This document shows positions 23,733-62,140 of a stretch of DNA of 64,000 nt, piece by piece. Each line of letters opens with the position of its first letter. Position 1 is the stretch's first letter. Origin of the DNA: Paracholeplasma morum (lineage in GTDB: Bacteria; Bacillota_I; Bacilli_A; Acholeplasmatales; UBA5453); NCBI RefSeq assembly GCF_016907055.1, contig NZ_JAFBBG010000001.1, positions 62,001-126,000 on the forward strand. Reading direction: 5' to 3'. The notes beneath the pieces were generated by a model, which was not told the DNA's origin, did not search any database, and saw only the letters and a list, made by a program, of their open reading frames with translations. The position numbers were made by a program, and so were the translations under genes.

Positions 23733-24469
23733 TAAATTCCCTCTTTCTATATTAATAATAATATGTGTTTTAGATATTATGATAGCATTAAACCACCACA
23801 AATGAAAGAACTTTTTCATATTTATTTCACTCATTAGTGTATTCAATAAAAAAACGGTCATTTTTATACTTTTTTTTGTTGGAAAACGCTTTAAAACGTT
23901 TTATCAAATTAGATGATCTTATCCAACTCTCCACTTTGATTACAAGAGTTACACTTAATATTGTTGTGCATTATGTCTTAATTTGGTTGCAAATAAGTTT
24001 TTTGATTGTTCCCTGAGAAGACAAAAAAGAAGCATTTAACCTAGTTTTAGTGGTTAGGTGCTTCTTATATTAATGTATGATGAATATTTTTCCTGTACAT
24101 GATTAAAATTTGTCTAAATTACCAAAAGTAATATATTTATTTGTTTATACATCTAAATTATCAGAACCGAATTATGTTATTAATCCTTTTTATTGCAAGA
24201 GTGATTTTAGGGTTTAGGCTCCCTTTGCTCTACTGAATTGTGTGCGCTATTTTAATATAATCACATAACATCTTTAAAATATACACACAACTAGAATTTG
24301 CTGCTTACTGTTAGAGTTCAAATCTTTGTATCTACATTGTTTAACACATAGAGGTTTTACACATATTTAGCATTCCTACTTTGGAAATATGTAAAATTTC
24401 ATTACGTTATAAAAGGACATAAAAATTAGAATTTTGGAATAAACTGTTGTTTTTAAACATATATTCAAT
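23733..24469. other. Gene-free stretch holding the left junction of the island
   Basis: No open frame of note. 23733-23880 should contain the protease promoter; none is convincing. Around 23883-23903 an interrupted palindrome (AAAACG-CTTTAA-AACGTTTT pattern) resembles a LacI/CcpA-type operator but does not match the cre consensus spacing. 24026-24135 matches the island junctions (see the repeat entry). 24136-24469 is AT-rich with no gene; ACAACTAGAATTT near 24286 recurs beyond the junction at 31829, so similarity to the other element end continues in patches. Confidence 0.5.
24029..24135. repeat. Degenerate island junction (copy D)
   Basis: 24029-24065 is a hairpin with the same AGAAGCATTTAAC left arm as the rlmD terminator. 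24083-24135 resembles the last part of the element-end repeat at 31752-31804 (TTCCT-TACATG, then TCTA, then ACCAAA-AGTAA-ATA). The rlmD tail and about 100 bases present in the other copies are missing between the two parts, which reads as a deletion. It would mark the far end of the island next to the protease gene. Confidence 0.55.
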
Positions 24470-26122
24470 TTATCCTTCGCAACTCGAACAACCTTCGCTC
24501 ATCACTTTTTTACGTGATAATGCTTGAGCTTGACTCATACTATATTGGTAGTAAAGCGATTTGATTCCCATATTATGTGCGTATAGATATAATGCATTGA
24601 TTTCCTTAACTGGAATGTCTGATGGAATCATTAAATTTATCGACTGTGCTTGATCTATATATTCTTGACGAATAGCTGCTTGATCAATAATTGAATGTGG
24701 ATTAATTTCTGCAAACGTTTTGAATACTTCTCTTTGCTCCAACGTTAAGAAATTCAAATGTTGAACTGAACCATCTGCCTTTCGGATGGATTCCCAAACA
24801 TCATCATTATCTTTACCAATTTCTACTAATAGTTCTCTTAAATAGGGATTCTTAAATGTCATTTTAGTTTTTGACAAGTCTTTAACATAATAATTTGAAA
24901 ACTCAGGTTCAACTGATTGGGATACTTGACCCAGTATTGTTGATGAACTCTTAGTTGGAGCAACTGCCATTAATGTCGTATTTCTACGACCATATCCAAT
25001 TAACACGTCTGGTTCACCATATAATTGAGCTAATTCAGCGGATGCTGCATATGTTTTCTCTTTAAGTGTTCTTGCAATTTCTACATTTTTCTGTGCAGCT
25101 TTTCTACTTTCAAAGGCGAGAAAATTGGATTGTAAATAGGAGTGCCACCCCAAAATACCAAGGCCTAAAGCACGATGTCTTTTTGCGAATGTGTTCGCTC
25201 TTTGATAATACATGTTATTTTCAGTTTTGTTTATAAATTCTGTAACAACAGTATCCAAAAAATACGTTAAAGTTTCAATTGCATCTGTGTTCTTCAATTC
25301 GTCCCAATGCAAAAGATTGATTGATGATAAAACACATGTAAATGTCTCATCATTACTTGAAGGCAGAGCAATTTCAGAGCACATATTACTTGCAAAGATT
25401 CTCGTGTTTTTATCGATATACACTTGGGGTTTATTCTTGTTAATATTATCGCTAAATAGAATATAAGGATAACCTATTTCACTTCTTCGTTGTAGTACTT
25501 TTGCCCACAATTTTCTTGAATGACTATCGCCTGATTTAACCTTTTCTAAGAAAGTATCAGATACAGTAATGCCTGTTGTTAAACCTTGAATTGGGTTACC
25601 TTCAGTACCTATATCTAAAAACTCATCCGCATCTGGATGTTCAATAGGCAAGTAAGCACTGAAAAAACCTCTTCTAACATTACCTTGTGAAACAACATCC
25701 GCTAAAGTATCAAACATTCTCATAAAGTGAACGGTACCATTTGAGTTACCACTATTCTTAATTGCAGCCCCACGATGCCTTACAGCTCCAAAAAATCCTG
25801 ATGTTCCGCCTCCGCTTTTCATTAACATTCCATTTTCTGCATGTCCAAATAAGATAGAATCCATCGTATCATCAATATATGAACCGAAACATGAAACTGG
25901 CAAACCTCTTTCTAAACCGTAGTTTGCCCATACAGGTGAAGATAATGAATAATATCCTCTACCCATGTATTCATAAAACTTATCTGCAAACCCTGGAATT
26001 CCTAAGTATTTCTCTGCTGTATTTGCAATGTGACGAATTCTATCTTGAGCAGTTTGTCCTTCAAGAAGGTATCCTCGTGAAAGGAATTTCTGAGATTCTT
26101 CATTTAACCATTCAAATGCCAT
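24470..26122 (-). CDS. nrdA: Class I ribonucleotide reductase catalytic subunit, short form without ATP-cone
   Basis: 550 residues, about 200 shorter than E. coli NrdA because the N-terminal ATP-cone is absent. The active site is complete: C78 in LPVSCFGS, N246, C248 and E250 in SNMCSEIALP, C263 in FTCVLSSINL, the paired radical-transfer tyrosines in KSLYYQYS, and C-terminal thiols C545 and C548 (CSSC) that pass electrons in. It reduces ribonucleotides aerobically with NrdB. The specificity-site region is retained. This architecture resembles NrdA of Leeuwenhoekiella and Facklamia, where overall activity control moved to NrdB. Last gene of the operon, 24 bases after nrdB. Confidence 0.93.
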   Translation of the reverse strand: MAFEWLNEESQKFLSRGYLLEGQTAQDRIRHIANTAEKYLGIPGFADKFYEYMGRGYYSLSSPVWANYGLERGLPVSCFGSYIDDTMDSILFGHAENGMLMKSGGGTSGFFGAVRHRGAAIKNSGNSNGTVHFMRMFDTLADVVSQGNVRRGFFSAYLPIEHPDADEFLDIGTEGNPIQGLTTGITVSDTFLEKVKSGDSHSRKLWAKVLQRRSEIGYPYILFSDNINKNKPQVYIDKNTRIFASNMCSEIALPSSNDETFTCVLSSINLLHWDELKNTDAIETLTYFLDTVVTEFINKTENNMYYQRANTFAKRHRALGLGILGWHSYLQSNFLAFESRKAAQKNVEIARTLKEKTYAASAELAQLYGEPDVLIGYGRRNTTLMAVAPTKSSSTILGQVSQSVEPEFSNYYVKDLSKTKMTFKNPYLRELLVEIGKDNDDVWESIRKADGSVQHLNFLTLEQREVFKTFAEINPHSIIDQAAIRQEYIDQAQSINLMIPSDIPVKEINALYLYAHNMGIKSLYYQYSMSQAQALSRKKVMSEGCSSCEG

Positions 26123-26146
26123 ATTTATAGCTCCGTTCCTATTAAT

Positions 26147-27385
26147 TTAAAACAAATCATCTTCAGTAAATGATTTTGTTTTTTTAGAATATGCAACACT
26201 TCGTTTAACAAAAAAGTCAATATTTTTTGTACTTAATGTTTCTTCAATAAACCAATCAGTTTCTTTGATCGCAGTTTTATCAACTTCAAATATAGCCTCT
26301 AATCCAATAGATTGAATAGATTCATTGAATCTATTTTTGATGAATTCTTTTACCACGTATTTGGATAAAAAAACTAAATCTGCATTCCCGTAAATCCAGT
26401 CAACGATTTCAGATTCAGCTTCGTAAGCTTCGATGCACGCTTTCTTGATCTGCTCGATTTTTTTTAAGTCGAACCACTCTGGATTTTCTTTTTTAATAAT
26501 GTTTACAACATCAAAACCAAATCTCGCATGGATATCTTCTTCTTTGGATGTTGCTTCCACCGCGTTGGAAATACCTTTTAAGACATTCTTGTGTTTATTA
26601 AAAGACATCATAATTAGAAATTGAGAAAATAGCGAAACATTCTCAACAAACATGGAAAACAAAATGATGTTATTAAAATAGTCTTCATTGTCTATAGGTG
26701 TTTTATTTACTTTTTCAAGATATGCAATACGTTTTTTAATTGATGGAACATTGATTAAATCTTCAAATTTTTCATTCAATCCTAATAACTCAATTAGGTT
26801 TGAATATGCATCAGCATGTCTTACTTCAGATTCTGCAAATGTAACACCAACACTTTGAAACTCAGGTTTTGGAAATCTTTCGTATATCTTCGACCAAAAT
26901 GTTTTGACTGCAACTTCAATCTGTGCAATTGCTAACATTGCGTTTTCTATAATGGAAATTTCTTCAGGTTTAAGATTGACTTTCATATCTTGAATATCTG
27001 AGTTGTAGTTGAATTCTGTATGAATCCAGTATGAGTGGCGGATAGCGTCAACATATTCCATAATCTCAGGATACTCGTATGGTTTTAGATTTGTTCGTTT
27101 TTTAAAGATATCTTTCTTATGTAATAGTCTGTAAGTAATATATGCTCTTGCTGCTTCAAAATGACCTATACGCATTAGCTCGTTTTCAACAAAGTTGTGA
27201 ATTTGGTCGACATGAATCGAATCAACGCCCATGTCATAAATCTGTTTGTGAACTGCTACTGCTATGTCTTTTGGGAGATTTTCTCCAGGCTCACTTGAAA
27301 CTGTACTCATAGCTTTTCTTACAGCTTTTTCAATCTTTTCGAGCGTATAATTTTGTGCTTTACCATTCTTTTTTATTACTATCAT
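26147..27385 (-). CDS. nrdB: Class I ribonucleotide reductase radical subunit with N-terminal ATP-cone
   Basis: 412 residues from the ATG at 27385 (GGGGG ribosome site). Residues about 1-90 are an ATP-cone (VIKKNGKAQNYTLEKIEKAV, then ARAYITYRLLHKK), normally on the catalytic subunit. The ferritin-like domain has both metal half-sites: Glu in QIEVAVKTFW, ESEVRH with a Tyr four residues after the His (position of E. coli Y122), Glu in FVENVSLFSQF and KEEDIH. NrdB ATP-cones of this kind were shown in Leeuwenhoekiella blandensis to switch the enzyme off with dATP by tetramerising NrdB. A 105-base gap separates it from nrdG, so an internal promoter is possible. Confidence 0.93.
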   Translation of the reverse strand: MIVIKKNGKAQNYTLEKIEKAVRKAMSTVSSEPGENLPKDIAVAVHKQIYDMGVDSIHVDQIHNFVENELMRIGHFEAARAYITYRLLHKKDIFKKRTNLKPYEYPEIMEYVDAIRHSYWIHTEFNYNSDIQDMKVNLKPEEISIIENAMLAIAQIEVAVKTFWSKIYERFPKPEFQSVGVTFAESEVRHADAYSNLIELLGLNEKFEDLINVPSIKKRIAYLEKVNKTPIDNEDYFNNIILFSMFVENVSLFSQFLIMMSFNKHKNVLKGISNAVEATSKEEDIHARFGFDVVNIIKKENPEWFDLKKIEQIKKACIEAYEAESEIVDWIYGNADLVFLSKYVVKEFIKNRFNESIQSIGLEAIFEVDKTAIKETDWFIEETLSTKNIDFFVKRSVAYSKKTKSFTEDDLF

Positions 27386-27490
27386 AGGCAATCCCCCTTA
27401 TTTTAATTCATTATGTTTTTATATTTTAAGAACTATTGATTCATTTTACTATCTATTTTTGAATTGAAGTGACCGCTTTTTTGAATAAGC

Positions 27491-28156
27491 TTATGATAAT
27501 TCATTCAGATTGACAAACCTATGGATTTCATAAGGTGTATCCTTATGATACTTTTTATTAAGAAGATCAATCCATACTTGACACTCTAGAAAAGCAGATG
27601 GATGAAGAAATGGATATTTGACACTTCGTATTTGATTAAAGCCTTTATCAGTTTTGACCACCCATTCTATCGTTTCAATCATTTGATCAATTTCGATTTG
27701 ACTTAAACTTCGTCCTAGCGTTTGTGTAACAATATCCTCATCTTGGATTGTAAGTAGATGGTAAGGAAGCTTTAAATCAACATGATACCCATCCACCATG
27801 CCCTTTTCCCACAGCATACGCATTTTTTCTCCATAATACCCTGTAGTGTAGATGACTATCGGTTTAATGGAAGCATTTCTTACCTTTTTTAGATCTAATA
27901 TAAGATGTTCAATCGGAGCTTGTAAAAATTCACCACCACTGAAAACAATCATTTCAATGATGTTTTCGTGCTGTTGAATAATTGTTATCACTTCATCAAT
28001 GGATAAAGCATCCGGGTGTCTTTTTAAAATGATTTCATCATAGTTTATGCACTTGTAACAACGAAACATACAACCTGTTAAACCGTGAATGAGAATTACT
28101 GTTTTTCCAGAAACTTCAGCTAAGGTTATCTGTACATGCGGATAGTATCTGATCAT
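27491..28156 (-). CDS. nrdG: Anaerobic ribonucleotide reductase activase (radical SAM)
   Basis: 221 residues. The radical-SAM cluster motif is CMFRCYKC (C29, C33, C36; CxxxCxxC), followed by VFSGGEFLQAP, the GGE SAM-binding motif, and a PIVIYTTGYYGEKM strand. NrdG-type enzymes put the glycyl radical on NrdD. It is longer than E. coli NrdG (154 residues) and closer to the AF- or archaeal-type activases. The start overlaps the nrdD stop by four bases (ATGA), so both proteins are made together. Confidence 0.92.
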   Translation of the reverse strand: MIRYYPHVQITLAEVSGKTVILIHGLTGCMFRCYKCINYDEIILKRHPDALSIDEVITIIQQHENIIEMIVFSGGEFLQAPIEHLILDLKKVRNASIKPIVIYTTGYYGEKMRMLWEKGMVDGYHVDLKLPYHLLTIQDEDIVTQTLGRSLSQIEIDQMIETIEWVVKTDKGFNQIRSVKYPFLHPSAFLECQVWIDLLNKKYHKDTPYEIHRFVNLNELS

Positions 28157-30084
28157 TTTGAATCTTCAACTTTAAATCTTCTTCGTTGAGCCCAATCAAG
28201 TCTTCTCGCCTTACTCCAAAAGTTATAGTCACCATGATAATAACCTTCTGAATTGACATGAATGTTTTGTCTAGCAATCATACGAACATAACCAATGACA
28301 CGTGAGAACGCTGCTATATCTGTTGATCCACAAACCGGGCATGAAGTGATATCTTTAGCATCCTTCCCAACAATACGTTGACCACATTGCTGACATGATG
28401 TAATTGTTGGAGTTAAGGTGATATAATTAATCGGTTTCTGGAATAAATTCCTTAAATAGTTTGCTAAAACTTCAGGTTCGATCTTATCTTCAAGGAAGTG
28501 ATGCAAGATAGAACCAGATGTGGCATATCCTTGAAACTCTGCTGCATTCTCAATTTGTTCATGAAAATCAACTTCACTAAACGGTAGCATACATCCACTT
28601 GTCAAATATACATCGTCACCCTGACCTTGAACAAAAATTTCTCTATTTCGTTCTTTAGCCCATTTCACATCATGCCGAGCTAACTTGATGCCTGCATTTT
28701 CAGCAGGAGCATATTCAATGCCACATGCTACATGATCTCGAACAATAAACTCATTGATGATATCGCTCATGTATTGCATGAGATTATGAGCATATTTACG
28801 GGCTTCTATATCTTTTAACCCATTTTGAAAACCTGAGTTAATTAAACCTTCATGCATGCCTGTGATTGCAAAGACATTGAAATAGTTTTTTAGATTATGA
28901 TTAAAAGCAAAAAATGTTGGATAGAGTTCTTTATGATTTTCAACCCATGATCTCTTAGCCATATGACCTTCTTGCATGATTTCTAAGTACTCACGTATTT
29001 TCTGTTTAAGTAAGTTTTGATCATGACCAAATTCAATCATCATACGATTCATGTTAAGATTAAGAACTTGAATAGCCCCTACATTACCTACACTGCTTCC
29101 AAATATCCCCCCTCCTGCACGAGATAAAACAGATAAATCAATATTTAAACGACAGCACAAACTCCGTGATACAGAGGGATCTTTTGGTTTGATATACGGA
29201 TTTAATTGAGTATAATATGGATCTGTAAACGGTCTTGTTCTAAAGTTTTCAAAATAGACACCACCCCATTGATACATTTGTTCAAGCAATTGCTTAAACA
29301 CTTCATTTCCATAGTTAAAATCATCATCAATTTGAACTGTTACTAATGGAAATGTCAAAGGAATACCTTTTTGAGTTCCTTTAGCCATTGCGTTGATAAA
29401 TGCTAAGTTGATGCGATCAAAATAAATTGCGGGTATTTCTTTATACTGGTAATCTTTAGGTTCTCCACCAACAATCACATACTCATCTTTAATTTCTTCA
29501 GATGGTTTGCCAAATTCAAGCGTGCAATTTGAAAAGGCTGACTCAGAACCTGAACGTAGTGGTAAATTGAGTTCATAGACTAACTGATACATTAATTTAG
29601 TTAAAGTATGATCTGTATAAAACTGACGATTCAACTCTTCTTCATATAAGTAAGAAGCTAAAATCGTTGTCATTTGCGAAAGCATGACAGCTCCACTAAC
29701 CTGTTGGCTCATCAATGTGACAACGTTGCTGAAATGTCGAATGAGTGTCGGAAGTGATGATGCTGGGCCACTCTCTAACATATTCTTCGCTAGACTTGGA
29801 ATACCAAGAGTAGCAATATCTTTGCATGATACACTTTGGCAATAAGAGGATAACTGTTTATCGTGAATATAGACAACACCATCCTCATATAATTCTGTTA
29901 GTTTTTTCGGTAAAACATACTTTAATAGATATTCTTCTTCTGCCTTATTCGTGATATTCTTTCGCAATAAAGGCAGTGAATAAACAAAATTACTGTTCTC
30001 TCTTTTTAAGTAATCTGCTTTCTTGTCTTCATCATTTCCAATAAATTTGTTAATTAATTCATCTGTCGTTTTAAACATAGCCAT
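28153..30084 (-). CDS. nrdD: Anaerobic (class III) ribonucleotide reductase, glycyl radical enzyme
   Basis: 643 residues. The glycyl-radical loop RVIGYVRM places G598 as the radical residue. A zinc-ribbon (CQQCG, about 24 residues, CPVCGS) precedes it as in other NrdD. The N-terminus begins directly with the catalytic fold and has no ATP-cone, so dATP control of overall activity seems absent. A paired cysteine region YCQSVSCKD (about residue 110) and RSLCCRLNID (about residue 308) are candidate catalytic thiols. Needs NrdG, encoded next. It works without oxygen while NrdAB works with oxygen; having both in one operon suits varying oxygen levels. Confidence 0.95.
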   Translation of the reverse strand: MAMFKTTDELINKFIGNDEDKKADYLKRENSNFVYSLPLLRKNITNKAEEEYLLKYVLPKKLTELYEDGVVYIHDKQLSSYCQSVSCKDIATLGIPSLAKNMLESGPASSLPTLIRHFSNVVTLMSQQVSGAVMLSQMTTILASYLYEEELNRQFYTDHTLTKLMYQLVYELNLPLRSGSESAFSNCTLEFGKPSEEIKDEYVIVGGEPKDYQYKEIPAIYFDRINLAFINAMAKGTQKGIPLTFPLVTVQIDDDFNYGNEVFKQLLEQMYQWGGVYFENFRTRPFTDPYYTQLNPYIKPKDPSVSRSLCCRLNIDLSVLSRAGGGIFGSSVGNVGAIQVLNLNMNRMMIEFGHDQNLLKQKIREYLEIMQEGHMAKRSWVENHKELYPTFFAFNHNLKNYFNVFAITGMHEGLINSGFQNGLKDIEARKYAHNLMQYMSDIINEFIVRDHVACGIEYAPAENAGIKLARHDVKWAKERNREIFVQGQGDDVYLTSGCMLPFSEVDFHEQIENAAEFQGYATSGSILHHFLEDKIEPEVLANYLRNLFQKPINYITLTPTITSCQQCGQRIVGKDAKDITSCPVCGSTDIAAFSRVIGYVRMIARQNIHVNSEGYYHGDYNFWSKARRLDWAQRRRFKVEDSK

Positions 30085-30141
30085 TTTTCTAATCCCCTTT
30101 ATTTTAAGTATAAAAAAAGCACACCGTTCACGAGGGTATGC

Positions 30142-30176
30142 AAAAAAAGAGGATTATAAATAACCTTCTTTTTCTC
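30142..30176 (-). terminator. Expression-platform terminator of the cobalamin riboswitch
   Basis: On the - strand AAGAAGGTTAT and ATAATCCTCTT pair (one A-C mismatch, one G-U) around a short loop and are followed by seven T. It lies between the riboswitch core and nrdD, so cobalamin binding probably stops transcription. Confidence 0.7.
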
Positions 30177-30177
30177 A

Positions 30178-30345
30178 CTCCCAGGAGAATGGTATTGTGG
30201 TCTAAGGTAGGTCTACCGGCTCAACTTCATTCTACATGCACCTTCCCGATTTCTCAGTGGTATATTGCATTTCGTCTATTTCACGGTTGCTGGGACAGCC
30301 CAAGATTATCACTTGATTCCCTGTTATGCATGAATGCACCTTATG
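30178..30345 (-). ncRNA. Cobalamin (B12) riboswitch upstream of nrdD
   Basis: On the - strand the aptamer shows its conserved blocks in order: AAGGTGCA at the 5' side (around 30334-30342), CAGGGAA, AAGTGATAATC, GGGCTGTCCC-AGCAACCGTGA (the J-region block), and the B12 box GAGCCGGTAGACCTACCTT (30204-30222), close to the consensus GAGCCAGGAGACCTGCCT. With a terminator 30 bases after the box, ligand binding should reduce transcription. Cobalamin riboswitches before B12-independent ribonucleotide reductases shut these off when a B12-dependent class II enzyme can work. That implies a class II enzyme and cobalamin supply elsewhere in the genome. Confidence 0.88.
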
Positions 30346-30350
30346 TTTCG

Positions 30351-30379
30351 ATTGTATATTAAATGATTGGTCAAGTCAA
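30351..30379 (-). promoter_or_regulatory. Promoter of riboswitch-nrd operon
   Basis: On the - strand TTGACT (30374-30379) and TACAAT (30351-30356) are 17 bases apart and lie just before the aptamer. It directly abuts the broken recombinase gene at 30383, so the operon boundary equals the recombinase deletion boundary. Confidence 0.75.
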
Positions 30380-30382
30380 TAA

Positions 30383-31468
30383 CAAGAAGTAGGCATTGGT
30401 GTAGGTCTAGGAAAAATTTTAGAGCAACTCATTGAGATGGGTGCCAAGACAGGTGCTGGTAAAACAGAATGGCGACTTTCAACGATTACAACGATTCTAA
30501 AGAATGAGAAATACATGGGTGACATGCTGCAACAAAAAACAATCAGCATCGATTATTTGAGTCATGCAAGAGTCAAGAATACAAATCACGCACCTACTTA
30601 TTATACAGAAAATAGTCATGAAGCAATCATCGATAGAGAAACCTTTGAACTTGCTCAACGTATTAGAAAAGATAGAGCTAAGGTTAGAATTGGCGAGGAT
30701 AAAAACCTCTCAAAATATAGTAGAACATATCCTTTGACGGCAATGATTATTTGTAGCGAATGTGGTCGAACGCTAAAAAGACGTTATTGGAACTACGGTA
30801 AGCCATCACAAAGGGTCATGCAACAGTGTGGCAGTTACATTGACGGTAAAGCGAATTGTAATGCAAAGGCGAGTCGTCAAGATCTCATTGAAGCAACAAC
30901 AATTCATATGCTAAACAAAGTCTTCTTAAAAGATCTAGATATCATGTCAACCATTCAAAAGGTAATTAAATCAACCATCAAAGTCGATGATATCCAAAAT
31001 ATCATTGAAAAGTTAACATCAGAAAGAGATGAAAACGAAATAGCATTATCAAATCTAATTGATACTAAGGTAAAAGCACCCGATATTCCAGAATCAATAT
31101 TTAATGCAAAGTATAGATAATACTCCGATCGTCTTAAAGTTCTAACTGCAGAGATTAACAAACTTGAACTTGAACATGTAGAAAACTATGACACCAGAAA
31201 ACGTATGGATAAGATCAACGAGATTCTAGGTAAAAAGAATCTAGTCATCGATGAACTTGATTCAGAGATTTTGAGTACATTCATCTATAAAATGATATCC
31301 GTAAGTCCAAATGAGATTGTATACTGTATTGCTGGAACCAAGAATTATTCAGACAATGAGTTCAAAGAACGACGTTTTGAGTTCTTAAAAACTGAACCAA
31401 TCATTGTGGAAACATATCACGCGCCCGATGGCTTAGCTAAGATGTTATATCGGGTTGTAGTGATATAA
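30383..31468 (+). pseudogene. Remnant of a large serine recombinase
   Basis: One frame runs from about 30383 to 31468 with a single in-frame TAA at 31118. The encoded sequence is the C-terminal half of a large serine recombinase: the recombinase domain (GVGLGKILEQL, TITTILKNEKYMGDMLQQKT), a zinc ribbon (ICSECGRTLKRR, then QQCGSYI..ANCNA), a long coiled-coil (about 30950-31230) and a C-terminal beta tail ending in RVVVI. The whole N-terminal catalytic domain with its serine is missing upstream, where the nrd promoter begins. So it is inactive. It marks the adjoining region as a mobile element end. Confidence 0.85.
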
Positions 31469-31500
31469 TTTTTTATCAATTAGATGTTCTAACACTCAAG

Positions 31501-31804
31501 AAAATATATGCTTAGAGCATAGTTTGATGTTTCCACATTGATTTTGATATGTTTCCACATTGGGCAAAAAGCAAAAAAAGAAGCATTTAACCCAGTTTTT
31601 AAGGGATAAATGCTTCTTGTCTTATTATATGAATGGCTTTGTTAAGTGGTTTTTAAAGAAAGCAATGTGATAGTTTCAACGTGCGTTGACAAGACTGAAT
31701 TGCTTGCAAAATCAACGTTGTGTGTATCAAAGAAACATCAAAATCAACCAAAATATGTTTTCCTTTACATGGTTGAAAACTGTCTATAATACCAAAGTAA
31801 CATA
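31501..31804. repeat. Island junction copy C: recombinase flank, terminator, rlmD tail, element end
   Basis: 31501-31578 shares GATGTTTCCACATTGGGCAA and flanking bases with the segment left of rlmD at 36947. 31579-31617 is the rlmD-type terminator hairpin. 31642-31683 encodes (on the - strand) HVETITLLSLKTT-stop, a near copy of the rlmD C-terminus HVESITLLSLKTA. 31684-31804 is a 121-base segment found again, with equal length, at 34661-34781. An inverted repeat TCAACG-TG-CGTTGA spans 31676-31689 at the boundary between rlmD tail and element end. Confidence 0.75.
31579..31617 (-). terminator. rlmD-type terminator, displaced copy
   Basis: AGAAGCATTTA and TAAATGCTTCT form an 11-pair stem; on the - strand it is followed by seven T. 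It stands after the displaced rlmD tail and now probably ends transcription of ldcA from unit 2. Confidence 0.7.
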
Positions 31805-31874
31805 AATTATATCGCATAAGTGGTCAAAACAACTAGAATTTACTTGTGCTAGATAATGTAGTAGATATCAATAA

Positions 31875-32945
31875 CTATTCAAACATTCTTTCTACTACTG
31901 AAATTGACTTGTTATAAAAATCAACTTTCCCTTTAATCCCGTAAGGAATAATGGTTCTTGGAAGTGCATGTCCAAAGTTTAAGTTATATACTATGGGTAA
32001 ACCCATATCATTTGATATCTTCAATAATACTTCTTTATATTCTTGATAATAGACCTCATCATATGGTTTACCAACCAATAAACACCTAGCATGACTAATA
32101 ACACCTTCTTCAATTAAGAAGTAAAGCATACTTTCAAACATTTTTGGTGTTGGTTTTTCTTCACTTGTTTCGAGAAATATGATTTTGTCAGTAAAAAAAT
32201 CTTTGTTAGGAATTAACCCATACTTATCATAAATATGCCTTTGATCTGGATACCTCTCACTTGTGTACAAATCATAGATACTTTCTAGACATCCTCCCCA
32301 GAATACGCCATCAATGACATCCGATCCATTTAAGAACTCGTGCCCTTTGTTTTCATCTAAATCGTAAAGCGGAACAGATAGTTGATCTACGCCATAGTTT
32401 GTTCTATTCAAATACCATTTAGAACTAGATTTTATTTCAAACTGTTCATCATTTATAAATAATCTCTTGTAGCTGTTCAGTGTGTATGGAATCATTTCCT
32501 TCTGTAGTTCACAAAGATCTGATAAGAAATTTAACCCATAATAAGTTACTAATCCTAATTTATTTAGCATCAAATGATTATTCGTAGAATCTGAAAAACC
32601 TATAAAAACTTTCGGATTTGAAAGTACCAGACTTTTAAACTCCTCATTCATAAGATACGGTATTGTTTTATAAGTATCGTCCCCACCAATGGCACAAATA
32701 ATGCCCTTTATAGTCGGATCTTTAAATGCAAGTCTTAAATCATCAGCTCTTTTACTCGGGTTGTTTTTTACAAAGTCTAATCCCTTTAGCGCATTAGGCA
32801 TAAAGACAGGTTCAAGACCTAGTTCTTCTAATCTTTTTATGCCAAGTTCTACCTGGTGTTTCACTTTAGGTTCACCTAATATACCCGATGATAAACTAAC
32901 AATGGCGATTTTGTCACCCTTTTTAAGTTGTTTAGGCTTAATCAT
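31875..32945 (-). CDS. S66 family LD-carboxypeptidase / MccF-like peptidase
   Basis: 356 residues. The S66 triad is visible: nucleophile S118 in FIGFSDSTNNH, Glu in FWGGCLESIYDL and His in NFGHALPRTI. The opening MIKPKQLKKGDKIAIVSLSSG is typical. Relatives either trim murein tetrapeptides in the cytoplasm (LdcA) or give self-immunity to microcin C-type peptidyl-nucleotide toxins (MccF). The large size and the active-site loop GFSDSTN fit the MccF branch slightly better, and a wall-less host would make murein trimming unlikely. The start lies inside the abiEii stop region (8-base overlap), so it belongs to the abiE transcript. Confidence 0.85.
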   Translation of the reverse strand: MIKPKQLKKGDKIAIVSLSSGILGEPKVKHQVELGIKRLEELGLEPVFMPNALKGLDFVKNNPSKRADDLRLAFKDPTIKGIICAIGGDDTYKTIPYLMNEEFKSLVLSNPKVFIGFSDSTNNHLMLNKLGLVTYYGLNFLSDLCELQKEMIPYTLNSYKRLFINDEQFEIKSSSKWYLNRTNYGVDQLSVPLYDLDENKGHEFLNGSDVIDGVFWGGCLESIYDLYTSERYPDQRHIYDKYGLIPNKDFFTDKIIFLETSEEKPTPKMFESMLYFLIEEGVISHARCLLVGKPYDEVYYQEYKEVLLKISNDMGLPIVYNLNFGHALPRTIIPYGIKGKVDFYNKSISVVERMFE

Positions 32946-33819
32946 TATTATCCCCCAAATCCACTTTAATTTGCTCCGTAATGGATTTAAAAAACTCGCG
33001 ACTCCAAAGGTCTAAACTAGACTGATCTTTAATAAATGGTCTAACATCGGATTTGGCAATATCATAATCAATCTGGTCGAATCGTTTTTTCAACATGTCA
33101 ATTAATAAATCTCGAGTCAACTTGATGTTTTCGTCAATTGTCTTAGTTTGTTTCAGTCTAGATTCTAAGTGTTTTAAATTCACTTTTGTCTCTAAACTTA
33201 AATAATAGACATAATCATATAAATCTCTGCCCTTTATGCGGTTCTTCCAACTTCTAGCAATCACGGCATGAATTTTACCAGCAAATAACGATGAAGCATC
33301 ATAAACTCGAACTTGATAGGGGAATGGTAATAAACGAAACTTTATTTCTGTATGTGCGTATAGCGGTGGATTTACATCAACTTCAAACTTGATGATAATC
33401 TTTTCGTTATGGATAATAAGTCTAGAATCCGACGAACTTGAATAAATAGTCATCAAGGTTTCTTTTGTATTACCTTTGATGAAAGCTGAATCAATATTTG
33501 AGTTTACTGTCTTATCCTTTTTGGAAACTTCAAAATTGAGTCCAAGTGAGTTTACAGCATCACTTATTGGTTTAAAATATTTACTAATATCAAAAGTATC
33601 ATCTGATACAAGTAGACTAAAGTCCAAATCCTCACTAAATCTATCCATTCCGTAAAAAATTCTTAAAGCTGTTCCACCATAAAAAGCAGCTTGGGTAAAA
33701 AAGTCGGTTTTAGAAAGACCTGCCAAAACCACTTCTTGTAAAACTTCTTTTATTGCGTGTTTCTTATCTTCTAACGTTTTCGGATTATACTTATTGATCA
33801 TCTGCTGAATAATTGTCAT
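32938..33819 (-). CDS. AbiEii-type nucleotidyltransferase toxin, copy 2
   Basis: 293 residues, AbiEii/AbiGii family. The nucleotidyltransferase motif is FYGGTAL (G48, G49) plus RFSEDLDF (D64 and D66, metal ligands), followed by the KFEVDVNPPLYAHTEIKFRLLPFPY strand region (third acidic position) and KIHAVIARSWKNRIKGRDLYDYVYYL, the family's conserved K/R..GRDxYD helix. AbiEii toxins modify tRNA 3' ends in characterised relatives and abort phage infection or stabilise elements. Overlaps abiEi by four bases. About 95% identical to the copy at 35391. Confidence 0.9.
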   Translation of the reverse strand: MTIIQQMINKYNPKTLEDKKHAIKEVLQEVVLAGLSKTDFFTQAAFYGGTALRIFYGMDRFSEDLDFSLLVSDDTFDISKYFKPISDAVNSLGLNFEVSKKDKTVNSNIDSAFIKGNTKETLMTIYSSSSDSRLIIHNEKIIIKFEVDVNPPLYAHTEIKFRLLPFPYQVRVYDASSLFAGKIHAVIARSWKNRIKGRDLYDYVYYLSLETKVNLKHLESRLKQTKTIDENIKLTRDLLIDMLKKRFDQIDYDIAKSDVRPFIKDQSSLDLWSREFFKSITEQIKVDLGDNND

Positions 33820-34406
33820 TTCATATACTCACTTTCAATGTATTTTCTTAAGTAATTCATATTGCTCGAGATGTATTTATCAGATAAAAACAGTATTTCA
33901 TCAAAGTTAAGTTGTTCAAAGATATCCTTGTTTATCCGTAAATCATCAAAAAGTAACATTTTTAGTTCTTTCATACTTTTTACTGGTTTTCTTATATATA
34001 GTAAATCACATAGTGCTTTTTCTGGGTTAGCCATAAAATAAGCATACCCGTCTTTTTCATATGCTTTTACTGAAAAAGGAAATGCAGCATTTGGAACATC
34101 TCTATAGGTATAAAGTCCGAAATGGTTTTGATAAACTTTGCTTTTTCTTTTGTTGAATGTTGCATTTGTATAAGTAACAACCCTTTCAGGGATGAGATTA
34201 TGATATGAAAGTGCATATTCGAAAGATAAATAGGATGGTCCATAAATATAAGAAGCGAGTAAAAATCCATCAGCTGATTCGTTAGTTTCATAAATACCAC
34301 GTACAAGAGGAAATAAGAAACCACTATCAATGTCTCTTTTGATTTTACCATTAATATCCGTATAATCCTTATACTTTTCTTTTAGGTTTAGTGTTGTAAC
34401 AATCAT
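33816..34406 (-). CDS. AbiEi-type antitoxin/transcriptional repressor, copy 2
   Basis: 196 residues. An N-terminal winged-helix part (GKIKRDIDSGFLFPLVRGIYE) leads to the AbiEi domain with IYGPSYLSFEYALSYHNLIPERV and a C-terminal PEKALCDLLY segment, the hallmark of the family. AbiEi proteins repress their own promoter and neutralise AbiEii in type IV toxin-antitoxin systems. First gene of the abiE pair, with GGAGG ribosome site and a near-consensus promoter. It differs from the copy at 36269 by scattered substitutions, mostly in the N- and C-terminal thirds. Confidence 0.88.
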   Translation of the reverse strand: MIVTTLNLKEKYKDYTDINGKIKRDIDSGFLFPLVRGIYETNESADGFLLASYIYGPSYLSFEYALSYHNLIPERVVTYTNATFNKRKSKVYQNHFGLYTYRDVPNAAFPFSVKAYEKDGYAYFMANPEKALCDLLYIRKPVKSMKELKMLLFDDLRINKDIFEQLNFDEILFLSDKYISSNMNYLRKYIESEYMK

Positions 34407-34428
34407 ATTATTTCCTCCACTTAATTTT

Positions 34429-34457
34429 ATTATATGCTATTATCTGGAGAATATCAA
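34429..34457 (-). promoter_or_regulatory. Promoter of abiE copy 2
   Basis: On the - strand TTGATA (34452-34457) and TATAAT (34429-34434), 17 bases apart. The spacer has no clear inverted repeat for AbiEi. Confidence 0.7.
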
Positions 34458-34502
34458 TATATTTAGTTTCTTTGATATCTTTTAGATCAGAGTGACTAGT
34501 AT

Positions 34503-34781
34503 TTTTCAAAACAAAATAATCGTAGCCGAAACATATCATGGATAAAACCAAAAAAAGAAGCATTTAACCCTACTTTAATGGGTTAGATGCTTCTACTACT
34601 GTTTTATGAACGGCTTTGTTAAGACGTTTTTAAAGAAAGCAATGTGATAGTTTCAACATGCGTTGATGCGACTAGATTGCTTACAAAATCAACATTGTGT
34701 GTATCAAAGTAACATCAAAATCGACTAAAATATGTTTACATTTACATGGTTGAAAACCGTCTATAATGCCAAAGTAACATA
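34503..34781. repeat. Island junction copy B: recombinase tail, terminator, rlmD tail, element end
   Basis: 34503-34544 encodes on the + strand a short FQNKIIVAETYHG-stop that resembles the recombinase C-terminal LKTEPIIVETYHA. 34556-34594 is the terminator hairpin. 34619-34660 encodes on the - strand HVETITLLSLKTS-stop, the rlmD tail. 34661-34781 is the 121-base element end shared with copy C. At 34653-34666 the inverted repeat reads TCAACA-TG-CGTTGA, one base off the perfect copy C. Confidence 0.7.
34556..34594 (-). terminator. rlmD-type terminator, displaced copy
   Basis: AGAAGCATTTAACCC and GGGTTAGATGCTTCT form a 15-pair stem with one G-U; six T follow on the - strand. It would end transcription of the 128-residue gene. 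Confidence 0.75.
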
Positions 34782-34897
34782 TTTATAGGTTTTAATCTAA
34801 AACTATAAGTGAGCGTCATAATTACCTCATCTCCATAAAAGAATAAATCTTTAATCCATTTAAGTTGCACAATAAACAAAGGATTTTTCATATGATC

Positions 34898-35284
34898 TTA
34901 TTTAACTTGCTCTAAAATCACAAGTAATTCTTTTGTTATATTACTGTAACCATTCCAGATAAAGTATTGTGTTACAATCTCATGCTCATCATATTCAACA
35001 ACTAGAAAATTGCATGTATATCCATCATTTTTTCCATACTCATAATCATCGATTTTTTTGGATTCTTCACTGTCAAAAACAAAAATATCATAGCAATCTA
35101 CAAGTTCTTTCCAAGTGTTATAAATCGCACCTTCAGTGATGTCAATTAAATCCATATTCTCATGATTATATGCGCTATGTTGCTTAAATCTATCTCCACG
35201 AACTTCATTAAGGTCTGAGACACTTGCTAACCTTGGATTAAATCTTTCGTTTAATTTCTTTCTTATTTCTTTTTTGTTAATCAT
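34898..35284 (-). CDS. Hypothetical acidic protein in island unit 1
   Basis: 128 residues, no membrane segment or known motif. It opens with a basic helix (INKKEIRKKLNERFNPRL) and continues with an acidic middle (YDIFVFDSEESKKIDDYEYGKNDG) and a C-terminal strand-helix. A good ribosome site GGAGG precedes the ATG at 35284. It occupies the place taken by ldcA in unit 2 and follows the ldcA fragment, so it probably arrived by the deletion event that removed ldcA. Function unknown; a defence or immunity role would be a guess. Confidence 0.6.
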   Translation of the reverse strand: MINKKEIRKKLNERFNPRLASVSDLNEVRGDRFKQHSAYNHENMDLIDITEGAIYNTWKELVDCYDIFVFDSEESKKIDDYEYGKNDGYTCNFLVVEYDEHEIVTQYFIWNGYSNITKELLVILEQVK

Positions 35285-35365
35285 GAATGCCTCCTACTTA
35301 TTATATTTAATGAATAAAGCATGTGCATGTTCTATTCTGAACGGATGATAATGTAGCAAATGTAT

Positions 35366-35398
35366 GTCACCTATTTTAAGTTGTTTGGGTTTAATCAT
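35366..35398 (-). pseudogene. First 11 codons of an ldcA-like gene (fragment)
   Basis: After abiEii copy 1 the sequence reads MIKPKQLKIGD, almost the same as the start of the intact S66 peptidase at 32945, with the same overlap to the abiEii stop. Similarity then ends abruptly. The rest of the gene was deleted or replaced. Confidence 0.8.
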
Positions 35399-36272
35399 TA
35401 TTATCCACTAAATCTACTTTAATTTGCTTAGTAATGGATTTAAAAAATTCGCTACTCCAAAGGTCTAAACTAGACTGATCTTTAATAAATGGGCTAACAT
35501 CGGATTTGGCAATATCATAATCAATCTGATCAAATCGTTTTTCCAACATGTCAATTAATAAATCTCGAGAAAGTTTGATGTCTTCGTCAATTGTTTTAGT
35601 TTGTTTGAGTCTAGATTCTAAGTGTTTTAAATTAGCTTTTGTCTCTAAACTTAAATAATAGACATAATCATATAAATCTCTGCCCTTTATGCGGTTCTTC
35701 CAACTTCTAGCAATCACAGCATGAATTTTGCCAGCAAATAACGATGAGGCATCATAAACTCGAACTTGGTATGGGAATGGTAATAATCGAAACTTAATTT
35801 CTGTATGTGCGTATAGTGGGGGATTTACATTAACTTCAAACTTTATGATAATCTTTTCATTATGAACAATAAGTCTGGAATCTGATGAACTTGAATAAAT
35901 AGTAATCAAGGTTTCTTTTGTATTACCTTTGATGAAAGCTGAATCAATATTTGAGTTTACCGTCTTATCCTTTTTGGAAACTTCAAAATTGAGTCCAAGT
36001 GAGTTTACGGCGTCACTTATTGGTTTAAAATATTTACTTATATCAAAAGTATCATCTGATACAAGTAAGCTAAAGTCCAAATCCTCACTAAATCTATCCA
36101 TTCCGTAAAAAATTCTTAAAGCTGTTCCACCATAAAAAGCAGCATGGGTAAAAAAGTCAGTTTTAGAAAGACCAGCCAACACCACTTCTTGTAAAACTTC
36201 TTTTATTGCATGCTTCTTATCTTCTAAGGTTTTTGGATTATACTTATTGATCATCTGCTGAATAATTGTCAT
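35391..36272 (-). CDS. AbiEii-type nucleotidyltransferase toxin, copy 1
   Basis: 293 residues; same motifs as the copy at 32938 (GGTAL at 48-52, RFSEDLDF with D64 and D66, KGRDLYDY). Differences include H43 for Q43, FEVNVNP for FEVDVNP (the third acidic position of the catalytic site) and several in the C-terminal 40 residues. The D-to-N change in the strand after KFEV may affect metal binding, so one copy could be weakened. The frame is intact. Four-base overlap with its abiEi. Confidence 0.9.
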   Translation of the reverse strand: MTIIQQMINKYNPKTLEDKKHAIKEVLQEVVLAGLSKTDFFTHAAFYGGTALRIFYGMDRFSEDLDFSLLVSDDTFDISKYFKPISDAVNSLGLNFEVSKKDKTVNSNIDSAFIKGNTKETLITIYSSSSDSRLIVHNEKIIIKFEVNVNPPLYAHTEIKFRLLPFPYQVRVYDASSLFAGKIHAVIARSWKNRIKGRDLYDYVYYLSLETKANLKHLESRLKQTKTIDEDIKLSRDLLIDMLEKRFDQIDYDIAKSDVSPFIKDQSSLDLWSSEFFKSITKQIKVDLVDNND

Positions 36273-36859
36273 TTCATATACTCACTTTCAATGTATTTTC
36301 TTAAGTGCTTCATATTGTTCGATATGTATTTATCAGATAAAAATAGTATTTCATCAAAGTTTAGTTGTTCAAACATATCTTTATTTACCCATAAATCCTC
36401 AAAAAGCAGTCTCTTTAATTCTTTGATACTTGTTACTGGTTTTCTATTATATAGTAAATCACATAGTGCTTTTTCTGGGCTAGCTATAAAGTAAGCATAC
36501 CCGTCTTCTTCATAAGCTTTTACTGAATAAGGAAATGCAGCATTTGGAACATCTCTATAGGTATAAAGTCCGAAATGATTTTGATAAACCTTACTTTTTC
36601 GTTTGTTGAATGTAGCACTCGTATAAACAACAACTCTTTCAGGAATGAGATTATGATAGGAAAGTGCATATTCGAAAGATAAATAGGATGGTCCATAAAT
36701 ATATGAAGCAAGTAAAAAACCATCAACCGAGCTTTCTGTTTCATAAATGCCTCGTACAAGAGGAAATAAGAAACCATTATCAATATCTCTTTTGATTTTG
36801 CCATTAATATCCGTATAACTCTTATACTTTTCTTTTAAGTTTAATGTTGTAACAATCAT
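36269..36859 (-). CDS. AbiEi-type antitoxin/transcriptional repressor, copy 1
   Basis: 196 residues, AbiEi family, same architecture as the copy at 33816 (winged helix, IYGPSYLSFEYALSYHNLIPERV, PEKALCDLLY). Substitutions are concentrated around residues 12-50 and 135-170, where repressor and toxin contacts would lie, so each pair may have its own specificity. Intact frame, own promoter, GGAGG ribosome site. Confidence 0.88.
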   Translation of the reverse strand: MIVTTLNLKEKYKSYTDINGKIKRDIDNGFLFPLVRGIYETESSVDGFLLASYIYGPSYLSFEYALSYHNLIPERVVVYTSATFNKRKSKVYQNHFGLYTYRDVPNAAFPYSVKAYEEDGYAYFIASPEKALCDLLYNRKPVTSIKELKRLLFEDLWVNKDMFEQLNFDEILFLSDKYISNNMKHLRKYIESEYMK

Positions 36860-36881
36860 ATTATTTCCTCCACTTAATTTT

Positions 36882-36910
36882 ATTATATGCTATTATCTGG
36901 AGAATATCAA
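36882..36910 (-). promoter_or_regulatory. Promoter of abiE copy 1
   Basis: TTGATA (36905-36910) and TATAAT (36882-36887) on the - strand, 17 bases apart; identical to the promoter of copy 2. Confidence 0.7.
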
Positions 36911-36946
36911 TATATTATGAGCAGATGAGTGTTTCCTTGCTAAAGC

Positions 36947-37110
36947 AAAATATATGTTTAGTGCATCTTTTGATGTTTCCACATTGGGCAAAAAGCAAAA
37001 AAAAGGAAGCATTTAACCCTATTTAAAGTAGTTAGATGCTTCTTGTTCTATTATACGAATGGCTTTGTTAAGCGGTTTTTAGAGAAAGCAATGTGATACT
37101 TTCAACGTGA
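36947..37110. repeat. Island junction copy A at the functional 3' end of rlmD
   Basis: 36947-36999 matches the recombinase 3' flank at 31501-31578 (TATATG-TTAG-GCAT and GATGTTTCCACATTGGGCAA). 37000-37043 is the terminator hairpin and 37068-37110 is the true rlmD C-terminus. Beyond 37110 it diverges from copies B and C, which enter the element end instead. The boundary region TTTCAAC-GTGATAG-GTTGAAGG is itself a loose inverted repeat. Confidence 0.65.
37000..37043 (-). terminator. Terminator of rlmD (and of the mgtE-sdaA operon)
   Basis: GAAGCATTTAAC and GTTAGATGCTTC form a 12-pair stem (one G-U type pair) with a 13-base loop, followed on the - strand by seven T. Ends the five-gene run that starts at mgtE. 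Confidence 0.75.
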
Positions 37111-38333
37111 TAGGTTGAAGGAAACATTCTAAAGGGTGTAATTGATTGGATTACATAGTATTCCGATAGTTTTTTCATATCTCTTGCGAGTGTCTTTAAG
37201 TCACAAGAAACATAAACTATTTGCTTAATTGGATGCTCAATAATCATGTCAATGATTCTTTCGCTTAACCCACTTCTTGGAGGGTCGAATATGATCACAT
37301 CTGATTTTGGAATCACTATTTCTAGTTTCTCTTCGACTTGTCCTTGTATAATTTCAATATTAGAAAGTTTATTTTGAATAATAGATGCTTTTGCTTGAAT
37401 AATAGAATCTTCATTGGACTCTATCGCATATACTGTCGTCTCATTATTGGATATATACTGACCGATTGAAGCCATTCCAGCATAGGCATCAATGATTATT
37501 CTACCTCTTATATTAGCTTTGATATGGTCATACATTTTTTTAGCAACTTCTGTATTCACTTGGAAAAAACCACTTGGACCTATGTTAAAGGAAACGTGAT
37601 TGAATTCAAGTGGTAAGGTCTTTAGTCCATATATATGTATTGAATCCGCTCCAAGAATCTCATAGTCTTCTATCGAATGATTGATATATAATGAGTCCGC
37701 ATAAGGCTTAAAAAGTTCAATCACAGATGATAAGTCACTTGGTGTTTCATTAACGCTTAAAACCATCATTACCTGTTTTTCATTGGTACGCAGGGTAATA
37801 TGTTTCAACCAATTAAAAGTAAACTGTTTTATTCCAAATAAGGTCGAAAGTTCTCTAATCGTTTTAGTTAAAATAGGTAATGCTAGCTCATGATTGTTAA
37901 TCTCGATTAAATCTCTTGATTGTTCCCTATAGACACCCAGTTTTAAAACACCATTTATTAGTTTGGTATGTAGCGTAATCTTATTTCGGTAGTGTAGTTT
38001 ACGGTTATCTGAAACCGTAGGATTTACACTCACATCAAGATTTGCGATCTTCTTAAGGGTTTCTTTTGTAATCTTTTCCTGCCAAAGGCATTCTGCATCT
38101 AGGGATAACCCATATAAAGGGGCATAATCAAAACTTAAATCAGAGATTCGATCCGGGCTTTTTTCAATAAGTTCTACTAACTCTGCCGTAACATAGTTTT
38201 TCTTATCTTTAATGATAGAGATACGTCCCACTTCATTGGCGAACATGCCTTTGATAAAAGTGGTTTTTTCATTCAGTTTTCCGATGCCTTGGCCTTGATA
38301 GTCCAAGTCATATGTCTTAATTATTGGGTTCAT
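37068..38333 (-). CDS. rlmD: 23S rRNA (uracil-5-)-methyltransferase, RumA/RlmD family
   Basis: 421 residues: a TRAM-like N-terminal beta domain, then a SAM-methyltransferase domain with IDAYAGMASIG, DPPRSGLSE and the catalytic Cys in YVSCDLKTLARD. It makes 5-methyluridine in 23S rRNA; RlmD- or RlmCD-type is not separable here. The usual iron-sulfur motif CxxxxxCGGC is not intact: the equivalent stretch reads DYAPLYGLSLDAEC with one cysteine. So the protein probably has no [4Fe-4S] cluster. Last gene of an operon, overlapping sdaA by four bases. Its last 14 codons lie in a junction repeat, showing that the tail was probably replaced by an integrated element. Confidence 0.92.
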   Translation of the reverse strand: MNPIIKTYDLDYQGQGIGKLNEKTTFIKGMFANEVGRISIIKDKKNYVTAELVELIEKSPDRISDLSFDYAPLYGLSLDAECLWQEKITKETLKKIANLDVSVNPTVSDNRKLHYRNKITLHTKLINGVLKLGVYREQSRDLIEINNHELALPILTKTIRELSTLFGIKQFTFNWLKHITLRTNEKQVMMVLSVNETPSDLSSVIELFKPYADSLYINHSIEDYEILGADSIHIYGLKTLPLEFNHVSFNIGPSGFFQVNTEVAKKMYDHIKANIRGRIIIDAYAGMASIGQYISNNETTVYAIESNEDSIIQAKASIIQNKLSNIEIIQGQVEEKLEIVIPKSDVIIFDPPRSGLSERIIDMIIEHPIKQIVYVSCDLKTLARDMKKLSEYYVIQSITPFRMFPSTYHVESITLLSLKTA

Positions 38334-61054: not shown

Positions 61055-62140
61055 TTATTCTCCTTTAATGTACTTTTTCTCGTAATATTTACGGTTTCTA
61101 ATTTTCGCATTTACCATTTTATTTCTAATTTCAACCTGAACGATATCTCCAAGTTTAACCGATTGGTTTAACATCACGTTACCATATGATTTTATTGTGT
61201 TTGGAATCATATAGCCTGTTGTGATATAGCCAACCATTTCATTGTCTTTGTAGACTGTATAGCCATCTCTAGCAATATTTCTTTCTAGGAGTTCCAGTCC
61301 CATCAATCGTCTTTCAAGGCCGTTTTCTTTTTGTTTAAGAAGTGCTTCTTTTCCAATAAAATCTTTGTGGAATTTGCAGAAATAACCTAATTGTGCTTCG
61401 AGAGGGGTAGTAAATCCATTAATTTCATGACCGTAAAGTGGTAACCCAGCTTCAAATCTAAGAGTGTCTCTAGCACCTAATCCACAAGGTTCTACACCCA
61501 TTTGGATGAGTTCATCAAAGAGTTTAACAATGGTTGGATTCGAGGCATATATCTCAAAACCATCTTCGCCTGTATAGCCACTCCTTGAAATAATCACTTC
61601 TTCTTCATTGTAGAGAAAGTAACCAAACTTCATAAACTCTAACTTAGTGACGCCAATGATTATTTGATCCATAATGTCTTTGGATTTTGGCCCTTGTAAT
61701 GCAAGTTGTCCATAAAAGCCTGAGACGTTTTCCAATAAACAATTAAAGCCATCTAGGTGTTTTTTTAACCATTGATAGTCTTTATCGGTATTAGAAGCAT
61801 TAACAACCAATAAGAACTGTTCGTCATTAATCTTATAAACCATAAGGTCATCAACCACGCCACCAGTAGGTTCTAAAAATAAGGTGTACATCAGTTCTTC
61901 TTCTTTCATGTCTTCAAAAGCATTGGTAGACATATAGTTTAAGAACTTAACAGAATCCTTGCCTGAGAGTAATAGTTCACCCATATGTGAACAATCAAAC
62001 ACGCCCACAGACTCTCTAACCGCTTTGTGTTCATCTAATATGCCCTTATAACTAACGGGCATATCAAACCCACCAAACTCGGTCATTTTAGCGTTTAACC
62101 CTAGGTGTCTATCGTGTAGACAAGTTACTTTTAGTTTCAT
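61055..62140 (-). CDS. gcvT: Glycine cleavage system T protein (aminomethyltransferase)
   Basis: 361 residues from the ATG at 62140, which has GGAGG that lies inside the last codons of the lplA gene; the longer frame to 62176 would overlap lplA. Motifs: GFDMPVSYKGILDEHKAVRESVGVFDCSHMGE, ALQGPKS, SRSGYTGEDGFEIY, CGLGARDTLRFEAGLPLYGHEI. It releases ammonia and makes methylene-tetrahydrofolate. Followed two bases later by gcvH. Confidence 0.96.
   Translation of the reverse strand: MKLKVTCLHDRHLGLNAKMTEFGGFDMPVSYKGILDEHKAVRESVGVFDCSHMGELLLSGKDSVKFLNYMSTNAFEDMKEEELMYTLFLEPTGGVVDDLMVYKINDEQFLLVVNASNTDKDYQWLKKHLDGFNCLLENVSGFYGQLALQGPKSKDIMDQIIIGVTKLEFMKFGYFLYNEEEVIISRSGYTGEDGFEIYASNPTIVKLFDELIQMGVEPCGLGARDTLRFEAGLPLYGHEINGFTTPLEAQLGYFCKFHKDFIGKEALLKQKENGLERRLMGLELLERNIARDGYTVYKDNEMVGYITTGYMIPNTIKSYGNVMLNQSVKLGDIVQVEIRNKMVNAKIRNRKYYEKKYIKGE

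Follow-up and report, generated by a model that had tools for sequence, protein, structure and literature searches.

Why the end of one gene should stand three times in a row is the question raised by the 3′ end of rlmD in Paracholeplasma morum, a small, cell-wall-less bacterium and a free-living relative of the mycoplasmas. The stretch analysed (hereafter the window; 64,000 nucleotides, positions 62,001 to 126,000 of contig NZ_JAFBBG010000001.1) contains an rlmD-family gene for a 23S rRNA m5U methyltransferase (37068..38333; Pfam tRNA_U5-meth_tr), and behind it an island at 24023-37110 which consists of three tandem units in the order rlmD-E1-E2-E3. E1 and E2 are phage-defence cassettes, and E3 is a ribonucleotide-reductase (RNR) cassette. 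The island is very probably a three-element tandem array, built by serial integration at the rlmD 3′ end by the large serine recombinase of an Acholeplasma-type prophage family. Four observations lead to this reading: the ends common to all elements, a crossover confined to the dinucleotide CA, the lack of a recombinase in E1 and E2, and the presence of exact units in other genera. Features of the window lie on the minus strand unless stated otherwise.

The repeated tails and the junctions

The last 14 codons of rlmD, followed by a terminator, are found in the window at 37109-37068, 34660-34619 and 31683-31642. From the core CA to the stop codon they read HVESITLLSLKTA, HVETITLLSLKTS and HVETITLLSLKTT, respectively. 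A repeat search of the window recovers a 111-nt family with three copies (85-86% identity) and a 238-nt pair (31567-31804 and 34544-34781, 87%) which comprises tail, terminator and a 121-base element end. In the final pass of the profile search, the three tails score E = 1e-18 to 1e-20 and the two 121-bp ends 1e-33 to 1e-34, values to be read in the light of the fact that these same tails and ends were among the profile seeds. The 121-bp end matches no known RNA in Rfam at the gathering cut-off. The earlier note on this DNA had placed the three tails correctly, and its statements that they are related, that each has the same type of terminator beside it and that the second and third run into one 121-base end all agree with these repeats. 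It had also placed a recombinase or its flank to the left of every copy; this holds for the third (remnant at 30397-31473) and the first (flank at 36947-37003), whereas the second has just a short weak match at 34518-34538.

In the target gene the junction falls at CA 37109-37108, and the last 14 codons of the window rlmD are element-borne, forming the half-site termed P′. Junction 1 (36990..37109) is of attL type (att, attachment site) and contains the CA core, the first tail and its terminator, with a left half of B type. Beyond the terminator lies the P′ arm (36947..36999) with TGTGGAAACAT repeats, as beside the recombinase 3′ end, 90-100% identical to 31501-31579 and to C13:3682-3721 on another contig of the same genome. 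Junctions 2 (34544..34660, tail at 34619-34660) and 3 (31567..31683, tail at 31642-31683) are internal and attP-like; each consists of CA, tail and terminator, with 16/24 palindromic matches.

The left limit of 24026 given earlier also stands. A further copy of the terminator occupies 24023-24084, and the sequence just beyond it, at ~24080-24150, scores 53-54 against the outer half of the 121-base end, the best of 500 dinucleotide shuffles reaching 30-33. Hence 24023..24150 is a decayed fourth element end, from which the tail and the core have been lost.

The attachment site and its recombinase

The core dinucleotide is CA in 65/66 junctions compared, a shift of ±2 bases being allowed when the core was located in the alignment. 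At rlmD it falls in the His codon of the conserved TYHVE motif. At a site outside rlmD (L108, in genome G034), the two ends, attL and attR, have just CA in common at the core. A shared core of 2 bp is a signature of serine integrases, and the Pfam domains Recombinase and Zn_ribbon_recom are likewise found next to att.

The internal junctions are imperfect, attP-like palindromes of ~50 bp, and the rlmD coding tail itself forms their right half. A mean of 16.0 of 24 positions are complementary, against a shuffled mean of 6.3 and a maximum of 15 (2000 shuffles); the attL-type junction 1 has 5/24. Identity between the right half-sites, P′ and B′, is 70%, against 28% between the left ones, P and B. 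Since the left halves differ and the right halves are alike, attP would be composed of P+P′, P′ being a copy of the rlmD tail followed by a terminator, and attB of B+B′, B′ being the same rlmD tail. Displaced original tails can still be read in frame up to their stop codons at the far ends of other arrays (for example HVENIVLLELSSRK and HIENIILLELK), as integration predicts. At three further loci (L112:3537, L115:3666 and L189) element ends meet similar non-rlmD sequence at CA (..TGTGANAACATA..), which is perhaps another target or the arm of another element.

In the same genome, the same DNA ends recur at a second rlmD paralogue on contig C13 and twice on contig C21. At C13 an intact recombinase of 585 aa is followed by repressor, terminase, portal, protease, capsid and tape-measure genes, and the locus is a prophage at this other paralogue. 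The enzyme belongs to the integrase family PHROG 95; its best NCBIfam match is CcrB, at 148 bits against a cut-off of 900. Recombinase sequence of this kind adjoins att in E3 of the window, in G032 and at L079 and L083. The E3 copy (30397..31473, plus strand; Pfam Recombinase and Zn_ribbon_recom) is broken, retaining residues 230-585 with one in-frame stop, and is 95% identical to the intact C13 enzyme in amino acids and 91% identical in DNA to the 3′ part of its gene.

The C13 prophage also contains an intact reading frame (C13:11453-12496) that looks tyrosine-recombinase-like by reading of the sequence, so that this enzyme could be the integrase and the serine recombinase a passenger. This is very improbable: at L108 the ends have nothing but CA in common at the core, the palindrome of ~50 bp is built around a core of 2 bp, and what adjoins the tail is the serine recombinase, or a scar of it, rather than the tyrosine enzyme.

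Several other features surround this enzyme family. A probable insertion-sequence transposase and an ABC transporter gene lie between the att arm and the intact recombinase on C13 (L017:6980-8089). On contig C15 of the same genome (L019, G000:C15, 7610-10211), two serine recombinase genes lie side by side, with about 40% identity to the enzyme of C13. A further lineage of recombinases, 62-63% identical, occupies rlmD sites at L085, L086, L087 and L088, where the tail continuation differs (TTAAAATAGCACTTGTTATATACTT). Carriage on plasmids was also considered, and the search gave distant recombinases only (below 60%). A search of IMG/VR and INPHARED for attP in free phage genomes returned prophage or array contigs and no clear circular attP.

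Cassettes shared across genera

E1 (34661..37109, 2449 bp) carries genes for an AbiEi-type antitoxin (36269..36859; PADLOC AbiEi, 1e-61), an AbiEii nucleotidyltransferase toxin (35391..36272; Pfam AbiEii 2.4e-31, PADLOC 8.5e-106) and a 128-aa protein (34898..35284) with no match in Pfam, PADLOC or NCBIfam. E2 (31684..34660, 2977 bp) carries homologues of the antitoxin (33816..34406) and of the toxin (32938..33819), together with an S66 LD-carboxypeptidase-family protein (31875..32945; Pfam Peptidase_S66 3.5e-29). Each unit has a 121-bp P arm, identified by repeat and profile searches (34661..34781 in E1, 31684..31804 in E2), and a recombinase search of the unit intervals found none in either.

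Both units have full-length counterparts in other genera. E1 matches an array unit of G022 (L101:7607-10053) at 95.9% identity, and E2 matches a unit of G009 (L105:4028-7003) at 92.5%. A third case is the CadC-CadA cassette (3385 bp) which ends contig C21, between an rlmD tail and the 121-base end, and which is 98.1% and 97.8% identical to cassettes in G028 and G052. BLAST alignments of such pairs start and stop at the core. As a yardstick, sdaA, a core gene, shows 71-75% identity within the genus, whereas the cassettes have matches at 92-98% in the DNA of other genera or families, with the same cut points, behind rlmD. This recurrence of the same cassettes, cut at the same points, argues that they move as units.

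The AbiE regions of E1 and E2 are 92.4% identical in DNA, and the repeats on their flanks have sufficient length for recombination. A single integration followed by unequal recombination, which copied tail, terminator and AbiE before the cargo changed, could thus be imagined. In the AbiE tree, however, E1 groups with G022 (98.2%) and E2 with G009 (94.7%), the split has a support of 1.0, and the window copies are not sisters. In addition, each full unit, ends included, has its match in another genus. On the strength of the tree and the unit-level matches we reject the idea, by now scarcely credible, that E1 and E2 arose by local duplication of an AbiE unit.

The cargo of E3 is of a different kind. 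A cobalamin riboswitch (30189..30358; Rfam RF00174, 88 bits, E 5e-21) precedes nrdD, for the anaerobic RNR (28153..30084; Pfam NRDD), an NrdG-like activase gene (27491..28156; NCBIfam NrdG2 60.8 bits, below cut-off), an NrdB gene with an N-terminal ATP cone (26147..27391; Pfam Ribonuc_red_sm and ATP-cone) and NrdE-prime, for a class I RNR large subunit (24470..26122; NCBIfam TIGR02510, above cut-off). The cargo behind the riboswitch thus spans 24470-30358. The cluster looks accessory, because a close NrdD copy is present in only 1/32 relatives (G019, 84%) and because the genome encodes a second RNR large subunit on contig C3 (852-aa frame, C3:31541). The same two facts disfavour the idea that these genes are ordinary chromosomal neighbours. 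On the G019 contig with the close NrdD, no element ends were detected. A B12-independent backup RNR carried by a mobile element is plausible.

Element ends are present in 17/61 genomes searched, the present one counted, and in 7/21 genera; most of the compared genomes are drafts. Several of the 17 contain tandem arrays of cassettes without a recombinase. The genomes in which arrays or single units could be located are G003, G005, G022, G032, G009, G030, G034, G038, G028 and G052, to which named contigs are added; within a genome, several rlmD paralogues are used as sites. Recombinase sequence is missing from 16/27 unit intervals, the shortest unit being 1.6 kb. G028, G009 and G026 have ends and no recombinase match anywhere in the genome. 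The cargo includes AbiE, CadC-CadA, a Pycsar cyclase with its effector, SoFic, a PDC-S26 candidate and PDC-S01 ATPases, as well as copper-type ATPases (by reading of the sequence). In G032 a single rlmD is followed by an 8.8-kb defence cassette and then by a 50-kb prophage with the same ends; a Pycsar cyclase and a transmembrane effector lie within an rlmD cassette of this genome (L102:6765-7951).

These small units may also be what is left of larger ones. A whole prophage or another element would have integrated and then lost its middle, giving cis-mobilisable elements (CIMEs) that are not mobile themselves. Decay of this sort is the standard model of tandem accretion (PMC5704250), recombinase 3′ scars (the last ~70-120 aa) adjoin tails in several genomes, and the E3 recombinase is itself broken. 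The explanation has an appreciable, though less than even, chance of being right. Set against it is the CadC-CadA unit, which lacks a recombinase and recurs across families with the same two ends at ~98% (C21, G028, G052), and so at least some units travelled after the recombinase was lost.

Relatives with unoccupied sites offer a further comparison. The earlier note had predicted an empty site in which rlmD is followed by the M6 protease gene. At the orthologous rlmD of G003 and G004, an ABC transporter comes directly after sdaA-rlmD, with no element between, and G005 has a short non-element neighbourhood there; in G001 a single 445-aa gene separates rlmD from the transporter. Judged by reading of the sequence, the transporter of these relatives is similar to window 15029-17389. 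An element-free rlmD is thus confirmed, whereas the M6 protease gene was not seen at the orthologous rlmD of G003, G004 and G005. The central proposal of the earlier note, repeated site-specific integration with restoration of the gene tail, is borne out by these element-free relatives together with the unit-length homologues in other genera, the CA core and the displaced tails. It is refined in that the AbiE units have no recombinase, the intact enzyme resides in a prophage elsewhere in the genome, and the RNR genes belong to the third unit as its cargo.

Array growth and known relatives

In the proposed mechanism, the recombinase would act at CA between attB (B+B′) and attP (P+P′), and integration would exchange the gene end for P′, leaving rlmD intact. 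As the P′ half-site is itself an rlmD tail, an attB-like site would be regenerated and the tails would recur: the new attL (B+P′) would nearly equal attB, and the next element could enter beside rlmD, pushing older ones outward. E3, the outermost unit, is the most decayed, which fits a newest unit beside rlmD. Cassettes without a recombinase would be moved by the prophage enzyme, in trans or by co-excision with a neighbouring prophage, and phage particles may carry them between cells, the least certain step. In this way phage defence (AbiE, Pycsar, Fic), resistance to metals and genes of metabolism would be spread.

Homologous recombination between the repeats is another way in which arrays can grow, the internal junctions holding >200 bp common to the elements and being attP-like rather than attB. 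RecA-dependent insertion of circles at these junctions, in place of repeated recombinase action at rlmD, is nevertheless unlikely: attL resembles attB over the right half-site, so that integrase-mediated accretion is possible, and the single cassettes of G028 and G052 sit exactly at CA. The serial-integration reading has other points against it. Neither an excised circle (attP) nor a same-species empty site was seen, the assignment of the recombinase to att rests on adjacency, and array order could reflect assembly in mostly draft genomes. The same cad genes also adjoin rlmD without these ends in G001 (L171) and G030 (L122), where the matches span cassette positions 170-2964 only, which suggests another route of mobilisation.

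A further consequence of P′ copying B′ is that attL equals attB, and attR equals attP, except for one half-site (P versus B). A directionality factor might then be dispensable, the recombinase alone both inserting and releasing cassettes. The outcome would be an integron-like set of exchangeable cassettes served by a phage serine integrase and docked at several rlmD paralogues, with the latest arrival always next to rlmD. This extension is speculative and quite improbable.

The general kind of system is already known. The staphylococcal and Enterococcus cassette chromosomes (SCC/ECC) use large serine recombinases, the 3′ end of the ribosome methyltransferase gene rlmH and ~50-bp att sites, and have highly variable cargo (PMC6222049). 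The rlmD array has in common with them the type of enzyme, a ribosome-methyltransferase 3′ end, the ~50-bp att and the variable cargo. Unlike them, it has no ccrAB/ccrC module, its single phage-type recombinase resides in a prophage and matches CcrB far below the cut-off, several paralogues of an rlmD-family gene replace rlmH as sites, and E1 and E2 lack a recombinase. Membership in SCC therefore fails on both recombinase and target gene. The ssrA islands of Dehalococcoides stand in tandem behind one gene, are bounded by repeats of its 3′ end and have a CcrB-like serine recombinase, some members being without an integrase (PMC3146451). All of these features are shared, whereas the target there is an RNA gene and no phage helper is involved; the rlmD array has exact small units across genera and families. 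CIMEs arising by accretion of integrative and conjugative or mobilisable elements (ICEs and IMEs) keep both att ends, have lost their recombination genes and stand in tandem behind a gene, and are described mainly for conjugative elements (PMC5704250). Judged by their sequence, E1, E2 and the cassettes in C21, G028, G052, G022 and G009 share this structure, with both att ends kept and recombination and transfer genes absent; the autonomous relative here is, however, a prophage.

In line with the earlier note on rumA-family genes as integration sites, rumA is a known target of serine integrases in streptococci. The ICEs concerned lie within the gene and alter the C-terminus of its product, while their second att is situated in the integrase gene (PMC4701971). 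The recombinase of Streptococcus suis 'rum' phages is 38% identical to the present one. Target gene family and enzyme class are alike, but here the rlmD tail is restored and att lies beyond the recombinase 3′ end. The units are not ICEs or IMEs, as no conjugation or mobilisation genes were recognised among the reading frames of the window units and those relatives that do bear the recombinase, in C13 and G032, are prophages. Nor do they resemble phage satellites such as phage-inducible chromosomal islands (PICIs) and PICI-like elements (PLEs), since E1 and E2 contain AbiE and one more gene only, with no integrase or packaging genes of their own. An integron cassette array, based on the tyrosine integrase IntI and attC hairpins, differs in that the enzyme here is a serine recombinase and the palindromic att lies inside the rlmD coding sequence. 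In the limited literature covered, no description was found of rlmD arrays in Acholeplasma (weak evidence of absence), nor of a recombinase-less cassette family in its relatives that combines a phage integrase with several rlmD sites. The new aspects are the phage-type recombinase, the use of several rlmD paralogues as docks, the mimicry of the gene tail by one half-site and the exact small cassettes common to families.

For these bacteria, the finding describes a cross-genus cassette system, tied to a prophage recombinase with a precise core, which would spread a B12-riboswitch RNR cluster along with phage defence and resistance to cadmium. It yields a predicted attB/attP pair for a new serine integrase, and it opens to testing both the phage-linked movement of small recombinase-less cassettes and the building of arrays by a serine integrase.

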